Assembly: GCF_007992495.1 (NCBI RefSeq)
Contig: NZ_BKAJ01000003.1
Span: forward strand, 1-64,000
DNA: 64,000 bases
Direction: 5' to 3'
Source of the DNA: Reyranella soli
Lineage (GTDB): Bacteria; Pseudomonadota; Alphaproteobacteria; Reyranellales; Reyranellaceae
Below, one piece after another: positions 454 through 57,546 of this stretch (the stretch's first letter is position 1; the number at the start of each line of letters is the position of its first letter). The notes under the pieces are model-generated. The model worked only from the letters and a program-made list of their open reading frames with translations. It did no database searches and had not been told where the DNA came from. The translations under genes and the position numbers were made by a program.

Positions 454-521
454 TCTTCCGGACCGCGCGCTTCCAGCGCGGTCATGATCATGTGCGCGCT
501 GGAAGCGCGAGGTCCGGAAGA
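454..521. repeat. Family A dispersed palindrome (TCTTCCGGACC type)
   Basis: Arms 454-480 and 495-521 pair over 27 bases with one mismatch. The centre contains TCATGATCATG. The TCTTCCGGACC ends and GCTTCCAGCGCG core recur inside the nested elements at 53.0 and 55.5 kb. It separates two genes read in the same direction. Confidence 0.85.
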
Positions 522-30336: not shown

Positions 30337-30371
30337 GGGAGCGCGGGCCTCCGGCCCGCTCATGCGCTCCC
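30337..30371. repeat. Family A dispersed palindrome, shortened
   Basis: The outer arms GGGAGCGC (30337-30344) and GCGCTCCC (30364-30371) enclose a small hairpin GCGGGCC-TCC-GGCCCGC (30343-30359). The second half of the full element is missing. It lies between convergent HNH and coq7 genes. Confidence 0.75.
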
Positions 30372-42494: not shown

Positions 42495-42553
42495 GGACCG
42501 CGGGCCTCCAGGCCCGCTCATGAATCATGAGCGGGCCTGGAGGCCCGCGGTCC
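42495..42553. repeat. Family A palindrome, 29-base perfect arms
   Basis: Positions 42495-42523 and 42525-42553 are exact reverse complements around a single A. The arm reads GGACCGCGGGCCTCCAGGCC then CGCTCATGA. It is the most perfect copy in the window and lies between two codirectional genes, only 18 bases before the next start codon, so it could fold in the mRNA leader of the MetE-like gene. Confidence 0.92.
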
Positions 42554-51999: not shown

Positions 52000-52968
52000 A
52001 TGAAACGCCGGCATCTCCTGGCCGCGGCGGCAGTCGTCGCCATTCCGCAATCCGGCCGCGCGCAGGCGTTTCCCGAGCGGCCCATCCGTTTCATCGTGCC
52101 CTATGCGCCGGGCGGGTCGACCGACACTTCCGCGCGCTTCGTCTCCGAGAAGCTGGCCGCCGTGCTGGGCCAGCCGGTGATCGTCGAGAACAAGCCGGGC
52201 GGCGGCACCATCATCGGCACCGAGATCGTCGCCAAGGCCAAGCCCGACGGCCACACCATCCTGCTGACGCCGGCCGCCATGATCGCCATCGCCGCGTTCG
52301 GCATGGCCACGCCCTACGACATCGACAAGGATCTCGTGCCGGTCGTGGGCTTCGTCGACCTGCCGATCCTGCTGGCCGCCTCCAACAGCGCGCCGTTCAA
52401 GACGGTCGCCGAGCTCGTCGCCTGGTCGAAGGCCGAGCCCGGCCGCACCGTCGCCTATGCCTCGGCCGGCATCGGATCGCTGACCCATCTGTGGGGTGAG
52501 TACGTCAAGGCCAAGACGGGACTGCCGATGGAGCATGTCGGCTACAAGGGCAGCGCCGAGGCGTTGCGCGACGTCATCGCCGGGCACGTGCCGTTGTTCG
52601 CCGACGTGCTGGTACCGACGGCGACGGCGGTGCGCGCCGGCCAGATCCGTGGCCTCGCGGTGGCGATGGCGCATCGCTCGGAGCTGCTGCCCGACGTGCC
52701 GACCGTCGCCGAGGCGGGCCTGCCCGGCACGGAAGGTACCGTGCCGTTCGGCATCTCGGTGCCCGGCGGCACGCCGGCCTCGGTGGTGATGAAGCTCAAC
52801 ACCGCGTTCAACGAGGCGCTGGGCGATGCAGCGATACGGCGCAAGCTCCTGGAGCTCGGCTTCGTACCGGTCGGCGGCGCGCCGCAGGCCTACGTCGCGG
52901 TGCTGGCCAACGAGATCGCCAAGTGGCGCAAGGTGATCAAGGACGCGAAGATTCCGGCACCGTCATAG
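52000..52968 (+). CDS. Bug family tripartite tricarboxylate transporter substrate-binding protein
   Basis: The 322-residue product has a signal peptide starting MKRRHLL and a mature Bug fold: FPERPIRFIVPYAPGGSTD, then GQPVIVENKPGGGTIIGTE, and TPAAMIAIA in place of the usual ligand loop. It binds a small carboxylate or amide in the periplasm for delivery to a TctAB permease; neither is encoded nearby, as is common for Bug genes. GGGAGGCAAC stands before the ATG. Divergence from the amidase operon suggests they act on one substrate. Confidence 0.9.
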   Translation: MKRRHLLAAAAVVAIPQSGRAQAFPERPIRFIVPYAPGGSTDTSARFVSEKLAAVLGQPVIVENKPGGGTIIGTEIVAKAKPDGHTILLTPAAMIAIAAFGMATPYDIDKDLVPVVGFVDLPILLAASNSAPFKTVAELVAWSKAEPGRTVAYASAGIGSLTHLWGEYVKAKTGLPMEHVGYKGSAEALRDVIAGHVPLFADVLVPTATAVRAGQIRGLAVAMAHRSELLPDVPTVAEAGLPGTEGTVPFGISVPGGTPASVVMKLNTAFNEALGDAAIRRKLLELGFVPVGGAPQAYVAVLANEIAKWRKVIKDAKIPAPS

Positions 52969-52973
52969 GAGCA

Positions 52974-53089
52974 CGGACCTCCAGGTCCGCTCAGAGTCTT
53001 CGTCTTCCGGACCGCGCGCGTCCTCGCGCGCTCATGAGCGCGCGAGGACGCGCGTGGTCCGGAAGAGCATGAGCGGACCTGGAGGTCCG
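52974..53089. repeat. Nested family A palindromes
   Basis: The outer palindrome is 52974-52993 paired with 53070-53089 (CGGACCTCCAGGTCCGCTCA). Inside its apex sits a second palindrome, 53003-53034 paired with 53035-53066, 32-base arms with one mismatch, with TCTTCCGGACC ends and no loop. The same inner ends occur alone at 454-521. The arrangement looks like one element inserted in the apex of another. Confidence 0.9.
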
Positions 53090-53103
53090 CGCTCCGAAGA
53101 GGG

Positions 53104-53490
53104 CTAACTCTTGGGACTGCCCCCCAGGAAGCAATAGATCATCCCGCTCTTGCTGGCGCAGATGTGGCTGCGGCCGTCGGGGGCGAGCTGCTTCAGCACG
53201 ACGCGCGGCGGCACCGGCACCCAACGACCGTCGAGCAGCGCGTACCACATGCCGTCGTCGTTGAGATAGGCGCGGGTCGGCCGGCAATCGCCGTCCGTGG
53301 AACTCGAGCGCCCGTTGCAGCATGAGTAGCCGGTGTCGGGCTGCTTCAGCTCCTTGTACCAGTCGTGATTCTCGGCGTGGCCCTGGCCGTATTGGCCCTC
53401 GGCGTGATCGTGCACATCCTGCGCACGGGCGCCGACGCTCGCGATGCAGAGAGTCGATAGCAATATGAAACCAAGAGCGGACAGGCGCAT
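53104..53490 (-). CDS. Secreted cysteine-rich protein, copy 1 of a tandem pair
   Basis: The 128-residue product has a signal peptide ending near SVGARAQ and then the blocks NHDWYKELKQPDTG, YSCCNGRS, GDCRPTRAYLNDDG and GRWVPVPPRVVLKQL, ending with ICASKSGMIYCFLGGS. Five Cys in the mature part suggest disulfides. The adjacent gene at 53568 encodes nearly the same mature domain. The start at 53490 opens the signal peptide. This looks like a known but unnamed alphaproteobacterial secreted family; function is unknown. Confidence 0.78.
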   Translation of the reverse strand: MRLSALGFILLSTLCIASVGARAQDVHDHAEGQYGQGHAENHDWYKELKQPDTGYSCCNGRSSSTDGDCRPTRAYLNDDGMWYALLDGRWVPVPPRVVLKQLAPDGRSHICASKSGMIYCFLGGSPKS

Positions 53491-53567
53491 CGAACCGCCT
53501 CCGTCTGCCGTGGAAACGAACAAGGCATCGTTTTTCGCAACGAAGCCGGGAACCTCCGGGTCCCTTT

Positions 53568-53945
53568 TTAGATCTTGGGCGAGCCGCCCAAAAAACAATA
53601 GATCATGCCACTTTTGCTGGCGCAGATATGCGAACTGCCATCAGGTGCGAGCTGCTGCAGGACGACGCGCGGCGGCACCGGCACCCAACGGCCGTTGAGC
53701 AGAGCATACCATTGTCCGTCATCGTTGACATAGGCCCGGGTCGGCCGGCAATCGCCTTCGACTCCATTGAGCGTACCGTTGCAGCACGAGAGGCCCGTGC
53801 CCGGCTGCTTCAGCTCCTGATACCAGTCGTGGTTCTCGACGTGGCCTTGGCCGTGGTGACCATCCTGTGCCAAGGCCGGATGGAAAATGGCCGGATTGAA
53901 AGTGACGCAGACCGAAACGACACCAACAAGTGCGTATCGTGGCAT
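53568..53945 (-). CDS. Secreted cysteine-rich protein, copy 2 of a tandem pair
   Basis: The product of about 125 residues has a signal peptide ending near HPALAQ and the same mature blocks as copy 1: NHDWYQELKQPGTG, LSCCNGTL, GDCRPTRAYVNDDG, GRWVPVPPRVVLQQL and ICASKSGMIYCFLGGSPK. DNA similarity is high through the mature part and falls in the signal peptide, so the duplication is old enough for the signals to diverge. The start was set at the ATG at 53945. Confidence 0.77.
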   Translation of the reverse strand: MPRYALVGVVSVCVTFNPAIFHPALAQDGHHGQGHVENHDWYQELKQPGTGLSCCNGTLNGVEGDCRPTRAYVNDDGQWYALLNGRWVPVPPRVVLQQLAPDGSSHICASKSGMIYCFLGGSPKI

Positions 53946-54009
53946 GAGGAGTGCCACCTTTCGCAAACTCTGTTGAGCCGGCCACGCATTCCAAGCGACG
54001 CGCCGTCGC

Positions 54010-54885
54010 TCAACCGATACCGTTGAGCGAAGTGTACTCCTTCTTCAGTCCGGAGACGATGGCCATGAACTGTGGATCGTCGGCCGACAACAGCCCGTGG
54101 CGCACGAAGAAGTCGATCAACACCAGATTGCAGTTGTATTTGAACTGGGTCGTGTCGCGTACGGTCTCGAACACGCGCTGCACCGGCCACAGCTCGAAGG
54201 AGTGCACTTCGCCGTCATTTGCGCGCGGTGTGAAATCCTCGGGCAGCTCGAGATCGAAGCACGTCATGATGTCGGGCTTGAGCTGCGGGCCCGACTGGTT
54301 GAGGTAGGTGATGTAGCTCACCGCCTTGGCCTGCTCGGCGAGCTTGCGCGGAATCGAGGCTTCCTCTGCACATTCCTTGATCAGATTGTCGTGCAGGCCG
54401 ATGCCGATCGGCTGGCCGCCGGCGACGGTGTTGTCGAGCTGCCCCGGGAAGGTCGGTTTCGTATAGGAGCGGCGCGGCACCCAGATGTGCAGGCCATCCT
54501 TGCGCCGCACGTAGGCCGTCAGGTGCGGTCCGAAGGCACGCACGCCGAACCACGGCACCGCCGCGCGCTCCATCGCCATCAATGGCGGGTCGGTGAACAC
54601 CCAGGTGACGGGATAGGCCTCCTCGCGCCACAGACTGCCGAACTGGCCGCGCTCGCGCAGCTCAAGCAGGAAGGCGCGCATGGCAGCGGTGCGCTTGTCG
54701 GGCGTGTCGAGCGCGGGATCGAGATGCCAGGCGGCGTCGTGACGGACGAACAGATCGGGCCGCGTCGCCACCACGGGCGCGAAGTCGCGATGGATGAAGC
54801 CTGCGCGCTGGCGGCCGATGAACCACGGCTCGAACTGGCTGAGGTCGCCGTTGTTGCAGCGCTTGATGTGGTCGAGGAAGGACAT
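54010..54885 (-). CDS. DUF4743-type NUDIX hydrolase
   Basis: The 291-residue product has an N-terminal DUF4743 domain (WFIGRQRAGFIHRDFAPVV, then RPDLFVRHD) and a C-terminal NUDIX fold with GGQPIGIGLHDNLIKECAEE, a variant NUDIX box keeping the metal-binding EC-x-EE helix. Homologues include fungal and plant proteins linked to thiamine damage control (oxo-thiamine diphosphatases). I therefore infer a metabolite repair role. The start is the ATG at 54885. Confidence 0.85.
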   Translation of the reverse strand: MSFLDHIKRCNNGDLSQFEPWFIGRQRAGFIHRDFAPVVATRPDLFVRHDAAWHLDPALDTPDKRTAAMRAFLLELRERGQFGSLWREEAYPVTWVFTDPPLMAMERAAVPWFGVRAFGPHLTAYVRRKDGLHIWVPRRSYTKPTFPGQLDNTVAGGQPIGIGLHDNLIKECAEEASIPRKLAEQAKAVSYITYLNQSGPQLKPDIMTCFDLELPEDFTPRANDGEVHSFELWPVQRVFETVRDTTQFKYNCNLVLIDFFVRHGLLSADDPQFMAIVSGLKKEYTSLNGIG

Positions 54886-54916
54886 CGGGGAGGCACATAG
54901 CTGGCAACGCCTCCGA

Positions 54917-55042
54917 TGTCATCCCGAGCCTCTGTCATCCCGAGCGCAGCCTTCTGTCATCCCGAGCGCAGCGAGGGATCTTTCCTGCGGCCTTAAAGAT
55001 CCCTCGCTACGCTCGGGATGACAGAGGGCGCTCGGGATGACA
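54917..55042. repeat. Compound family B repeat, nested half-copies
   Basis: A full hairpin lies at 54954-54983 paired with 54995-55024 (CTGTCATCCCGAGCGCAGCG left arm). Two further partial left arms precede it (from 54917 and 54932) and one right half follows it (to 55042, CTCGGGATGACAG). Copies seem to have been added stepwise at the outer ends. Confidence 0.87.
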
Positions 55043-55072
55043 GCGGGTATGGTGTCTGCGACATTGAGTCGG

Positions 55073-55438
55073 ATGACCGAAGACGAGCTGCAAGTCCTTC
55101 TCGACAAGACCTTGCCGGCGGCCGACCGGCACGACGTGTTCGTCGAGGAGTGCCAGGATCAGGACGTGCGGCTGCGCTTTTCGCTCAAGCCCGGCGAGAT
55201 CTGGTCGAGCGCGGCGCTGCTGTCTCTGGCCGACACGTCGCTGCGCGCGGCGGCAGGACTTGAAGCTGCTCTTTCGCATCTCAACGTCACGGTGCTGAGG
55301 GCAGCGCACGAGGCCGACGTGCTCGCCCTGTCGCGCGTTATCCGCCGCGACGGCGGGACCGTGCATGCCGAGGCCTGGCTATTCAGCCACGCCGTCGTCG
55401 AGCCAATGCTGCACGCGACGGCGACGTTGAAAAAGTAA
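55073..55438 (+). CDS. Small hotdog-fold (PaaI-like) thioesterase-type protein
   Basis: The product of about 121 residues reads like a short hotdog domain: DVRLRFSLKPGEIWSSAALLSLADTSLRAA (given here in part: SLADTSLRAAAGLEA) followed by VTVLRAAHEADVLALSRVIRR, then a final strand pair. The long helix with LADTSL matches the PaaI layout where an Asp or Glu acts on acyl-CoA. It might hydrolyse thioesters. The ATG at 55073 was chosen; an earlier in-frame ATG at 55049 lies in repeat-derived sequence. Confidence 0.6.
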   Translation: MTEDELQVLLDKTLPAADRHDVFVEECQDQDVRLRFSLKPGEIWSSAALLSLADTSLRAAAGLEAALSHLNVTVLRAAHEADVLALSRVIRRDGGTVHAEAWLFSHAVVEPMLHATATLKK

Positions 55439-55444
55439 CGTCAT

Positions 55445-55572
55445 CGGAGCGCGGACCTCCAGGTCCGCTCATGCTCTTCTGGACCGCGAGCCTCCGGCTC
55501 GCTCATGAGCGCGCTGGAAGCGCGCGGTCCGGAAGACGAAGACGATGAGCGGACCTGGAGGTCCGCGCTCCG
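55445..55572. repeat. Nested family A palindromes, composite
   Basis: Outer arms 55445-55472 and 55545-55572 are perfect over 28 bases (CGGAGCGCGGACCTCCAGGT then CCGCTCAT). The interior is a composite: a left part with GCGAGCCTCCGGCTCGCTCA and a right part with GAGCGCGCTGGAAGCGCGCG and GGTCCGGAAGA, halves of two different family-A modules. It ends exactly at the stop of meaA. Confidence 0.9.
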
Positions 55573-57546
55573 TCAGGCCGCTTCCTTCCAGGCGCCATCC
55601 ACGACGGCGACGATGTCGCGCATGATCTGGGTGAGGTCGAAGTCCTTCGGCGTGTAGACGCGGGCCACGCCCGTCTTGATCAAGGCCTCGGCGTCGGCCG
55701 GCGGGATGATGCCGCCCACCACCACCGGCACGTCGCCGATGCCGGCGGCGCGCAGGCCGGCTAAAACCTCGCCGACCAGGGAGACGTGGCCGCCCGACAG
55801 GATGGAGAGCCCGACCACGTGCACGCTTTCCTCGAGGGCGGCGTTGACGATGCGCTCGGGCGTCAGCCGGATGCCCTCGTAGACCACCTCCATGCCGCAG
55901 TCGCGGGCGCGCACGGCGATTTGCTCGGCGCCGTTGGAGTGGCCGTCGAGCCCGGGCTTGCCGACCAGGATCTTTATGCGGCGGCCGAGGCGGCGCGACA
56001 CCGTGTCGACCTCGCGGCGCGCGGCCTCCAGGCGGCCGTCGCTGACGCCGACGGCGCGGGCCACGCCGGTAGGCGCGCGGTACTCGCCGAACACCGAACG
56101 CAAGGTGTCGGTCCACTCGCCGGTGGTGACGCCCGCCTGCGCGCAGGCGATCGAGGCCGGCATGACGTTGCGGTCTTCCTTGGCGGCAGAGGTCAGCTCG
56201 TCCAGCGCCTTCTTCACGGCGGCGTTGTCGCGCGCGGTCCGCCACGCCTGCAGGCGCTCGACCTGCTCGCGCTCGACCGAGGCGTCGACCGTCAGGATGG
56301 CACCTTCGCCGGTCGAGAGCGGCGAGGGCTCGGCATCGGTGTAGGCGTTGACGCCGACCACGGTCTGCTCGCCGGCCTCGATGGCGGCCAGCCGCTTGAG
56401 GTTGGACTCGACCAAGCGCTGCTTCATGTAGGCCGCTTCGATCGCCGCCACCGCGCCGCCCATGTCGGCAATGCGTGCCACCTCGGCGTTGGCTTCCTGC
56501 TTCAGCGACTCGACCTTGCGGGCGATCTCGGCACTGCCATCGAAGATGTCGCCGTATTCCAGAAGGTCGGTCTCGAAGGCCACGATCTGCTGCAGGCGCA
56601 GCGACCATTGCTGGTCCCACGGCCGCGGCAGGCCGAGCGCCTCGTTCCACGCCGGCAATTGCACCGAGCGGGCGCGGGCGTTCTTGCTCATCACCACGGA
56701 GAGCATTTCGAGCAGGATGCGATAGACGTTGTTCTCGGGCTGCTGCTCGGTGAGACCGAGCGAATTCACCTGCACGCCGTAGCGGAACAGGCGCTGCTTC
56801 GCGTCGGTGACGCCGTAGCGCGTGCGCGTCAGCTCGTCCCACAGCTCGGCGAACGCCCGCATCTTGCACATCTCGGTGACGAAGCGGATGCCGGCATTGA
56901 CGAAGAAGGAGATGCGGCCGACGACCTGCGGGAAGTCGGCCTCGGGCACCTGACCGCGATCGCGCACCGCGTCGAGCACGGCGATGGCATTGGCGAGCGA
57001 GAAGGCGAGCTCCTGCACCGGCGTCGCACCCGCTTCCTGCAGGTGATAGCTGCAGACGTTCATCGGGTTCCACTTGGGAACCTCGCGGTAGGTGAAGCCG
57101 ATCGTGTCGGCGGTCAGACGGAGCGACGGCTCGGGCGGAAAGATGTAGGTCCCGCGGGAAAGATACTCCTTGATGATGTCGTTCTGGGTTGTGCCCTGCA
57201 GCTTGGCGCGCTCGACGCCCTGCGCTTCTCCGGCCGCGATATAGAGAGACAAGAGCCACGCCGCCGGTGCGTTGATGGTCATCGACGTGTTCATGCGGTC
57301 GAGCGGGATGCCGTCGAACAGGGTCCGCATGTCGCCGAGATGGCTTATGGGCACGCCGACCTTGCCGACCTCGCCCTTGGCCAGCGGATGGTCGGAGTCG
57401 TAACCGGTCTGGGTCGGCAGGTCGAAGGCGACCGACAGGCCGGTCTGACCGCGCGCCAGGTTGGTGCGGTAGAGCTCATTGGATTTGGCCGCGGTCGAGT
57501 GGCCGGCATAAGTCCGGATCAACCAGGGACGGTCGCGGTTGGTCAT
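55573..57546 (-). CDS. meaA: Ethylmalonyl-CoA mutase (MeaA), B12-dependent
   Basis: The 657-residue product is a single-chain coenzyme B12 mutase. The N-terminal barrel has [19 protein letters not shown], then [19 protein letters not shown], and [19 protein letters not shown]; the C-terminal B12 domain has the DGHSNG motif with His536 as cobalt ligand. The close match of these blocks to MeaA of Methylorubrum and the length (about 660, shorter than methylmalonyl-CoA mutase) favour conversion of (2R)-ethylmalonyl-CoA to methylsuccinyl-CoA in the ethylmalonyl-CoA pathway. The other pathway genes are not in the window. The ATG at 57546 opens the conserved region. Confidence 0.93.

Follow-up and report, generated by a model that had tools for sequence, protein, structure and literature searches.

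Structure of the nested palindromes

The window (the whole 64,000-nucleotide stretch of Reyranella soli DNA that was analysed) contains, at 52968-53095, four small hairpins that together form one long palindrome (Table 1). A palindrome lying in the apex of another had been read here from the letters of the sequence, at 52974-53089, and this is confirmed: the outer arms (52974-52993 and 53070-53089) form an exact 20-nt palindrome, and the 32-nt inner arms (53003-53034 and 53035-53066) are 97% complementary. Folded as single-stranded DNA, 52965-53097 reaches -78.5 kcal/mol; 200 dinucleotide shuffles average -31.2 (sd 2.9), which gives z -16.5, a difference so large that a chance origin is ruled out. 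Each arm consists of a small hairpin and, after it, a TCATG-like foot, which makes every palindrome an inverted doublet of such units. A hairpin scan based on this foot gave a common unit composed, in order, of (TCTTCC)GGACC or GGAGC, a TCC(A)-looped stem of about 7 bp, and TCATGA.

Table 1. Palindromic elements in the 64-kb window
Feature	Position	Strand	Basis or remark
Whole composite: inner doublet within the apex of an outer inverted doublet	52968..53095		sequence, palindrome search, fold
Outer left hairpin unit, CGGACC-TCCA-GGTCCG plus CTCA foot, CGGACCTCCAGGTCCGCTCA	52974..52993	+	sequence reading
Outer right hairpin unit, reverse complement of the outer left unit without mismatch	53070..53089	-	sequence reading
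Inner doublet, 32-nt arms, with small hairpins 53014-53031 and 53039-53054	53003..53066
Second nested composite	55446..55571		overlooked in the sequence-only reading
Inner doublet within the second composite, its units being GCGAGCC and GCGCGCT	55475..55536
Solitary inner-type doublet, GCGCGCT subtype	454..521
Solitary outer-type doublet, GCGGGCC subtype, empty apex	42495..42553
Reduced single unit, GCGGGCC subtype	30337..30371

Both types also occur alone in the window, as had been claimed, but as sister subtypes and not as identical copies. The solitary inner doublet has a GCGCGCT stem where the composite has GCGCGCG, and the solitary outer doublet has GCGGGCC where the composite has GCGGACC.

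The two composites (52968-53104 and 55438-55573) occupy the gap between convergent ORFs almost exactly, and judging by this position they could serve as bidirectional terminators. It is most improbable, however, that the composites are simply selected transcription terminators or RNA structures and not mobile. Their hairpins are very stable and their position between convergent ORFs would suit such a role, but the families are dispersed and have defined ends, RAYT genes lie between the same units, elements are present or absent at the same site among relatives, and an Rfam search of 52700-55800 gave zero matches. Termination may be a secondary use.

Nesting in the genome and the genus

The nested form is recurrent, which a genome-wide search for further copies was expected to decide. 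In the R. soli genome (9.85 Mb, 409 contigs), strict patterns found 27 outer-type apices filled and 8 empty; the searches were exact, with gaps confined to 2-16 or 62-92 nt. The fillings were inner-type doublets in 22 cases, a single inner arm in one and palindromes of other families in four. Full sequence was used to sort 25 of the 27 (among them 20 inner doublets and the single inner-type arm, on C158), and the remaining two were read as inner type from both strands in the pattern-search listing. The four from other families were two of TCATCCTGAGCG type, one outer-type doublet of the other subtype (C49) and one of GCGCCA type (C95:53707).

Inner-type apices behave quite differently as hosts. 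All 53 inner-type doublets found in this genome by the strict pattern had an empty apex, with no insert of the same size range in any of them (Fisher P = 7e-16 for outer versus inner). With 53 inner and 35 outer doublets by strict patterns, the genome holds inverted unit pairs that form hairpins in many copies, as is typical of canonical REPs and REPINs.

Fifty of the 53 inner doublets were located and fetched, and 48 were classified, a duplicate filter removing the rest. By script, 14 of these were nested, 4 half nested, 6 near a contig end and 24 neither, although inspection by eye found that one of the 24 (L163) sits within a GCGCCAC-type palindrome and one of the four half-nested doublets (L144) within an outer element that has one changed base. 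Elements of these families stand at contig ends of the genome on C16, C36, C58, C68, C79, C100, C102, C150 and C251, as if the assembly had broken at them, so nesting and copy numbers are probably under-counted.

Within the genus, the nested form was present in 8 of 61 genomes, at 27, 9, 44, 19, 9, 3, 12 and 17 places.

Several further arrangements were seen. A GGTCGCG..CGCGACC hairpin may lie in the small loop of a single hairpin unit, a second level of nesting in which the guest occupies the unit's own tip (L144, L166, L180, L196 on C158, L212 in G013, and G047:C135:33787). Palindromes of the TCATCCTGAGCGAAGCGAAGGATC family fill outer apices at C33:55974 and C215:9532 of R. soli and also stand alone in relatives, at the orthologue of 55446 in G013 and that of 42495 in G054. 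On C144 of R. soli an inner doublet (L184) is flanked by a GCGCCAC-type unit and, at its other end, by a GCGGGCC-type unit; it is possibly a recombinant between two composites.

Orthologous sites in relatives

Comparison of relatives revealed both states of an apex at one orthologous site. At C37:125485 the same outer palindrome, with the same flanks, is filled in R. soli and empty in G032 (apex CTCATGAACCATGA). G013 has the outer element there without the inner doublet, with another short hairpin in one unit, and G054 has nothing. A second site agrees less exactly: the composite at 55446 is filled in R. soli and in G032, and G019 has an empty outer element with somewhat different flanks.

At the orthologue of 52974, G032 has the inner type alone, G019 an empty outer element of the other subtype and G054 nothing. 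The element is variable between relatives at this site. At that of 42495, G013 has the same empty outer element, G054 a TCATCCTGAGCG-type palindrome, and G047 and G019 have 700-800 nt of other sequence; no filled orthologue of this empty outer element was found among these four genomes.

These comparisons bear on whether the four-hairpin composite is itself mobile, with nesting confined to one or a few events and the complete unit copied afterwards. Many composites share layout and length; among the 40 of 379 first-look candidates that were scored, copies from separate loci show 75-90% identity over 133 nt; and the composite at 55446 is shared with G032 by descent. Nevertheless, this explanation is very unlikely given that hosts and guests are found in varied combinations (both outer subtypes, several inner subtypes and, in 4 of 27 cases, fillings of other families), that inner and outer types are also found alone, and that the outer element stands alone in G032 at C37:125485. 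Repeated insertion into existing outer elements is the reading followed below.

RAYT genes between the same hairpin units

A RAYT gene was predicted to accompany these elements, and such genes are present, between inverted copies of hairpin units of this kind. The R. soli genome has two PF01797 (Y1_Tnp) genes, both above the cut-off and both flanked by inverted hairpin units, of inner type on C275 and of GCGGGCG type on C27. The two proteins carry an HUH motif (PNHVHVV) together with NPVKAGL or NPVKLGL, which fit the NP(L/V)(R/K)xG motif beside the tyrosine by which RAYTs are defined (PMC2817692). The NCBIfam RAYT model NF047646 gave 75 bits for the C27 protein, below its cut-off of 80, and 82 and 93 bits, above it, for two relatives; the sole solved structural relative is PDB 4er8 (E. 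coli TnpA-REP), matched at E 0.002. Together, the family models and 4er8 place the protein among the RAYTs.

PF01797 genes occur in all 8 genomes with nesting versus 23 of the 53 without it (Fisher P = 0.005, kinship ignored). Since those 23 genomes also carry the gene, it is not sufficient for nesting.

Of 41 RAYT loci, 40 gave a tblastn match (L118 gave none), and 31 of these 40 have labelled flanks, the RAYT gene lying between inverted copies of hairpin units. Four copies (L100, L102, L103 and L106) and five loci with no recognisable units (L104, L105, L107, L108 and L109) were dropped. The flanks were labelled by eye with the families known; on this labelling, the three hairpin classes of the 31 rows require 2 changes on the RAYT clades, where 200 shuffles give at least 10. 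When only the two classes matching outer and inner are considered, a single change suffices, a value never reached in 500 shuffles. Hairpin class tracks RAYT clade, which suggests separate RAYT lineages for host and guest palindromes.

No RAYT gene with outer-type flanks was found in the R. soli genome, and towards the C terminus the C275 gene departs from the reading frame of its relatives; on both counts it is uncertain whether the system is still active in this genome. RAYT relatives also turned up in records from other phyla, L104 in a Fimbriimonadaceae MAG (52% identity) and L105 in a Flavobacteriales MAG (43%). Either horizontal transfer or mis-binned contigs would account for them.

Insertion site and choice of apex

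The outer apex TCATGATCATGA contains TCAT twice per strand. Solitary inner-type elements point to the same motif. At 61 solitary ends, conservation ends at -6, and T, C, A and T are found at -6 to -3 in 84, 85, 77 and 80%, respectively. Exact TCAT stands at -6 to -3 in 40 of the 61 ends and TCTT in 7 more, whereas shifted positions give only 0 to 4; exact TCAT is missing from 21 of the 61. The one solitary inner element with an orthologous site lacking it among the matches listed (G013, L199) has no TCAT on its left.

Junctions vary. The form TCATGATCAT-insert-ATGA fits insertion at TCATGA with AT shared, and the commoner form, TCAT-insert-ATGA, is consistent with an apex of 6 nt or with loss of its central part. 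With junctions this variable, no size is claimed for a target duplication. Orientation of inner within outer elements was dropped as a feature because the outer element is symmetric.

As a cluster of TCAT sites, the apex TCATGATCATGA would by itself attract insertions. It is quite possible, if somewhat less probable than the contrary, that there is no preference for hairpins, that any TCAT or TCATGA may be hit, and that apices are merely TCATGA clusters in which insertion is known to be harmless. TCAT also flanks solitary elements, there are several TCAT in one apex, and both composites of the window lie in a gap between convergent ORFs, where an insertion is likely to survive. Two observations go against it. 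Outside these repeats there are about 1,100 non-coding TCATGA genome-wide, compared with which outer apices (27 of 35 counted) seem to be filled about ten times as often, a rough figure scaled from a non-random sample of 354 kb (the window and 18 stretches, some on contigs picked for holding hits; crude ORF mask, 22% non-coding). In addition, inner apices have the same motif and yet remain unhit. The excess in apices is compatible both with a preference for folded DNA and with better survival at tolerated sites.

Most surprising is that the inner family shows no nesting within itself. Inner doublets fill 22 outer apices and none of the 53 inner apices with the same TCATGA motif; if apex number were all that counted (35 outer, 53 inner), a 22-to-0 split would have a probability of about 1.5e-9, age being ignored. 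We raise, tentatively and as an unlikely case, the idea that RAYT-mobilised doublets pick the tips of foreign families and avoid their own, akin to transposition immunity, so that families stack. The main rivals to such self-avoidance are that inner copies are younger, and that nests within one family are lost when their identical arms recombine.

Proposed origin of the composites

Taken as a whole, the composites are very probably made of REPIN-like, RAYT-associated doublets, a doublet of another family having been inserted in an outer-family apex at or near TCAT. Both palindromes would be REPIN-like inverted doublets of the small hairpin unit, probably non-autonomous relatives of those loci where matching units enclose a RAYT gene, with host and guest derived from different RAYT lineages. 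First in place would have been an outer-family doublet (GCGGACC or GCGGGCC stem). Into its apex a second doublet, from another family (with a GCGCGC, GCGAGC or GCCGGC stem), would later have inserted at or beside TCAT, and the TCAT-rich apex would have led it to the hairpin tip. Choice of a target motif, plus a preference for hairpins or safe sites, would explain the nesting.

This reading builds on the recurrence of nesting, the shared architecture of the units, RAYT genes that lie between the same units, the co-segregation of RAYT clade with hairpin family, and one orthologous site where R. soli has the apex filled and G032 has it empty. We infer that a RAYT is the mover, that it works on hairpins in single-stranded form, and which element came first at sites other than C37:125485, 52974 among them.

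The sequence-only reading had proposed independent elements, one of them targeted to the apex of the other. This interpretation is supported by recurrence, by the RAYT loci and by the orthologous pair; preference for TCAT may explain much of the targeting. It had also called them REP/BIME-like and of RAYT type, and here the REPIN-like form and the association with RAYT genes hold. The canonical GT[AG]G head is lacking, and action on single strands and hairpins is suggested by membership of the family.

Relation to known systems

REPINs are inverted REP doublets, and the RAYT (TnpA-REP) genes that go with them lie between inverted REPs and are family-specific (PMC3116915, PMC2817692, PMC8266576). 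The Reyranella elements resemble the REPIN/RAYT systems of Pseudomonas, Stenotrophomonas and E. coli in being inverted doublets, in many copies and several families per genome, in having a RAYT gene between two inverted units, and in the co-segregation of RAYT and unit family. They differ in that the unit, GGACC/GGAGC-hairpin-TCATGA, has no 5'-terminal GT[AG]G and has a TCATGA foot between the arms, and in that doublets of one family occupy apices of another.

REPIN/RAYT systems and RAYT-like genes with non-GTAG flanks have already been described (PMC6006769, PMC3686654, PMC3733652). TIRtrons have long terminal inverted repeats, unrelated to GTAG, around a RAYT gene, with a GGGGWSAS motif in some (PMC3733652). 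The Reyranella loci are like TIRtrons/TIRYTs and atypical RAYT subclasses, in which inverted non-GTAG repeats, some of them dispersed, surround RAYT-like genes; the passages describing these make no mention of nesting into apices of other families (PMC3733652, PMC6006769).

REP dimers recurrently inside other palindromes are on record for Anabaena variabilis GTAG-15, Thermomicrobium roseum GTAG-23 and Halothiobacillus neapolitanus CGTC-1, so the basic arrangement is already in print (PMC3733652). In two of those three organisms, according to the relevant passage, target palindromes free of the REP were not found. In Reyranella, hosts with and without a guest occur together and also at an orthologous site, and RAYT genes of relatives are flanked by the very types that act as hosts. 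Insertion sequences that target REP palindromes (PMC1525189) likewise show a mobile element preferring such palindromes, but there the guest is an insertion sequence, whereas in Reyranella it is another REPIN-like palindrome. A limited literature search found no description of REPIN families that nest in each other's apices. In outline, these are REPIN-like, RAYT-associated elements with a TCATGA foot that very probably stack by insertion into the apices of other families.

New insertions of REPINs are seldom caught, which makes their choice of targets difficult to study. In Reyranella every host apex, empty or filled, is a record of past insertion with a readable flanking motif, and the RAYT lineage can be identified for the host type as well as for the guest type. 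The selection of targets, preference for hairpins and avoidance of the own family are thus testable in vitro and by comparison of strains. The composites also illustrate the stepwise build-up of intergenic hairpins of about 130 bp.
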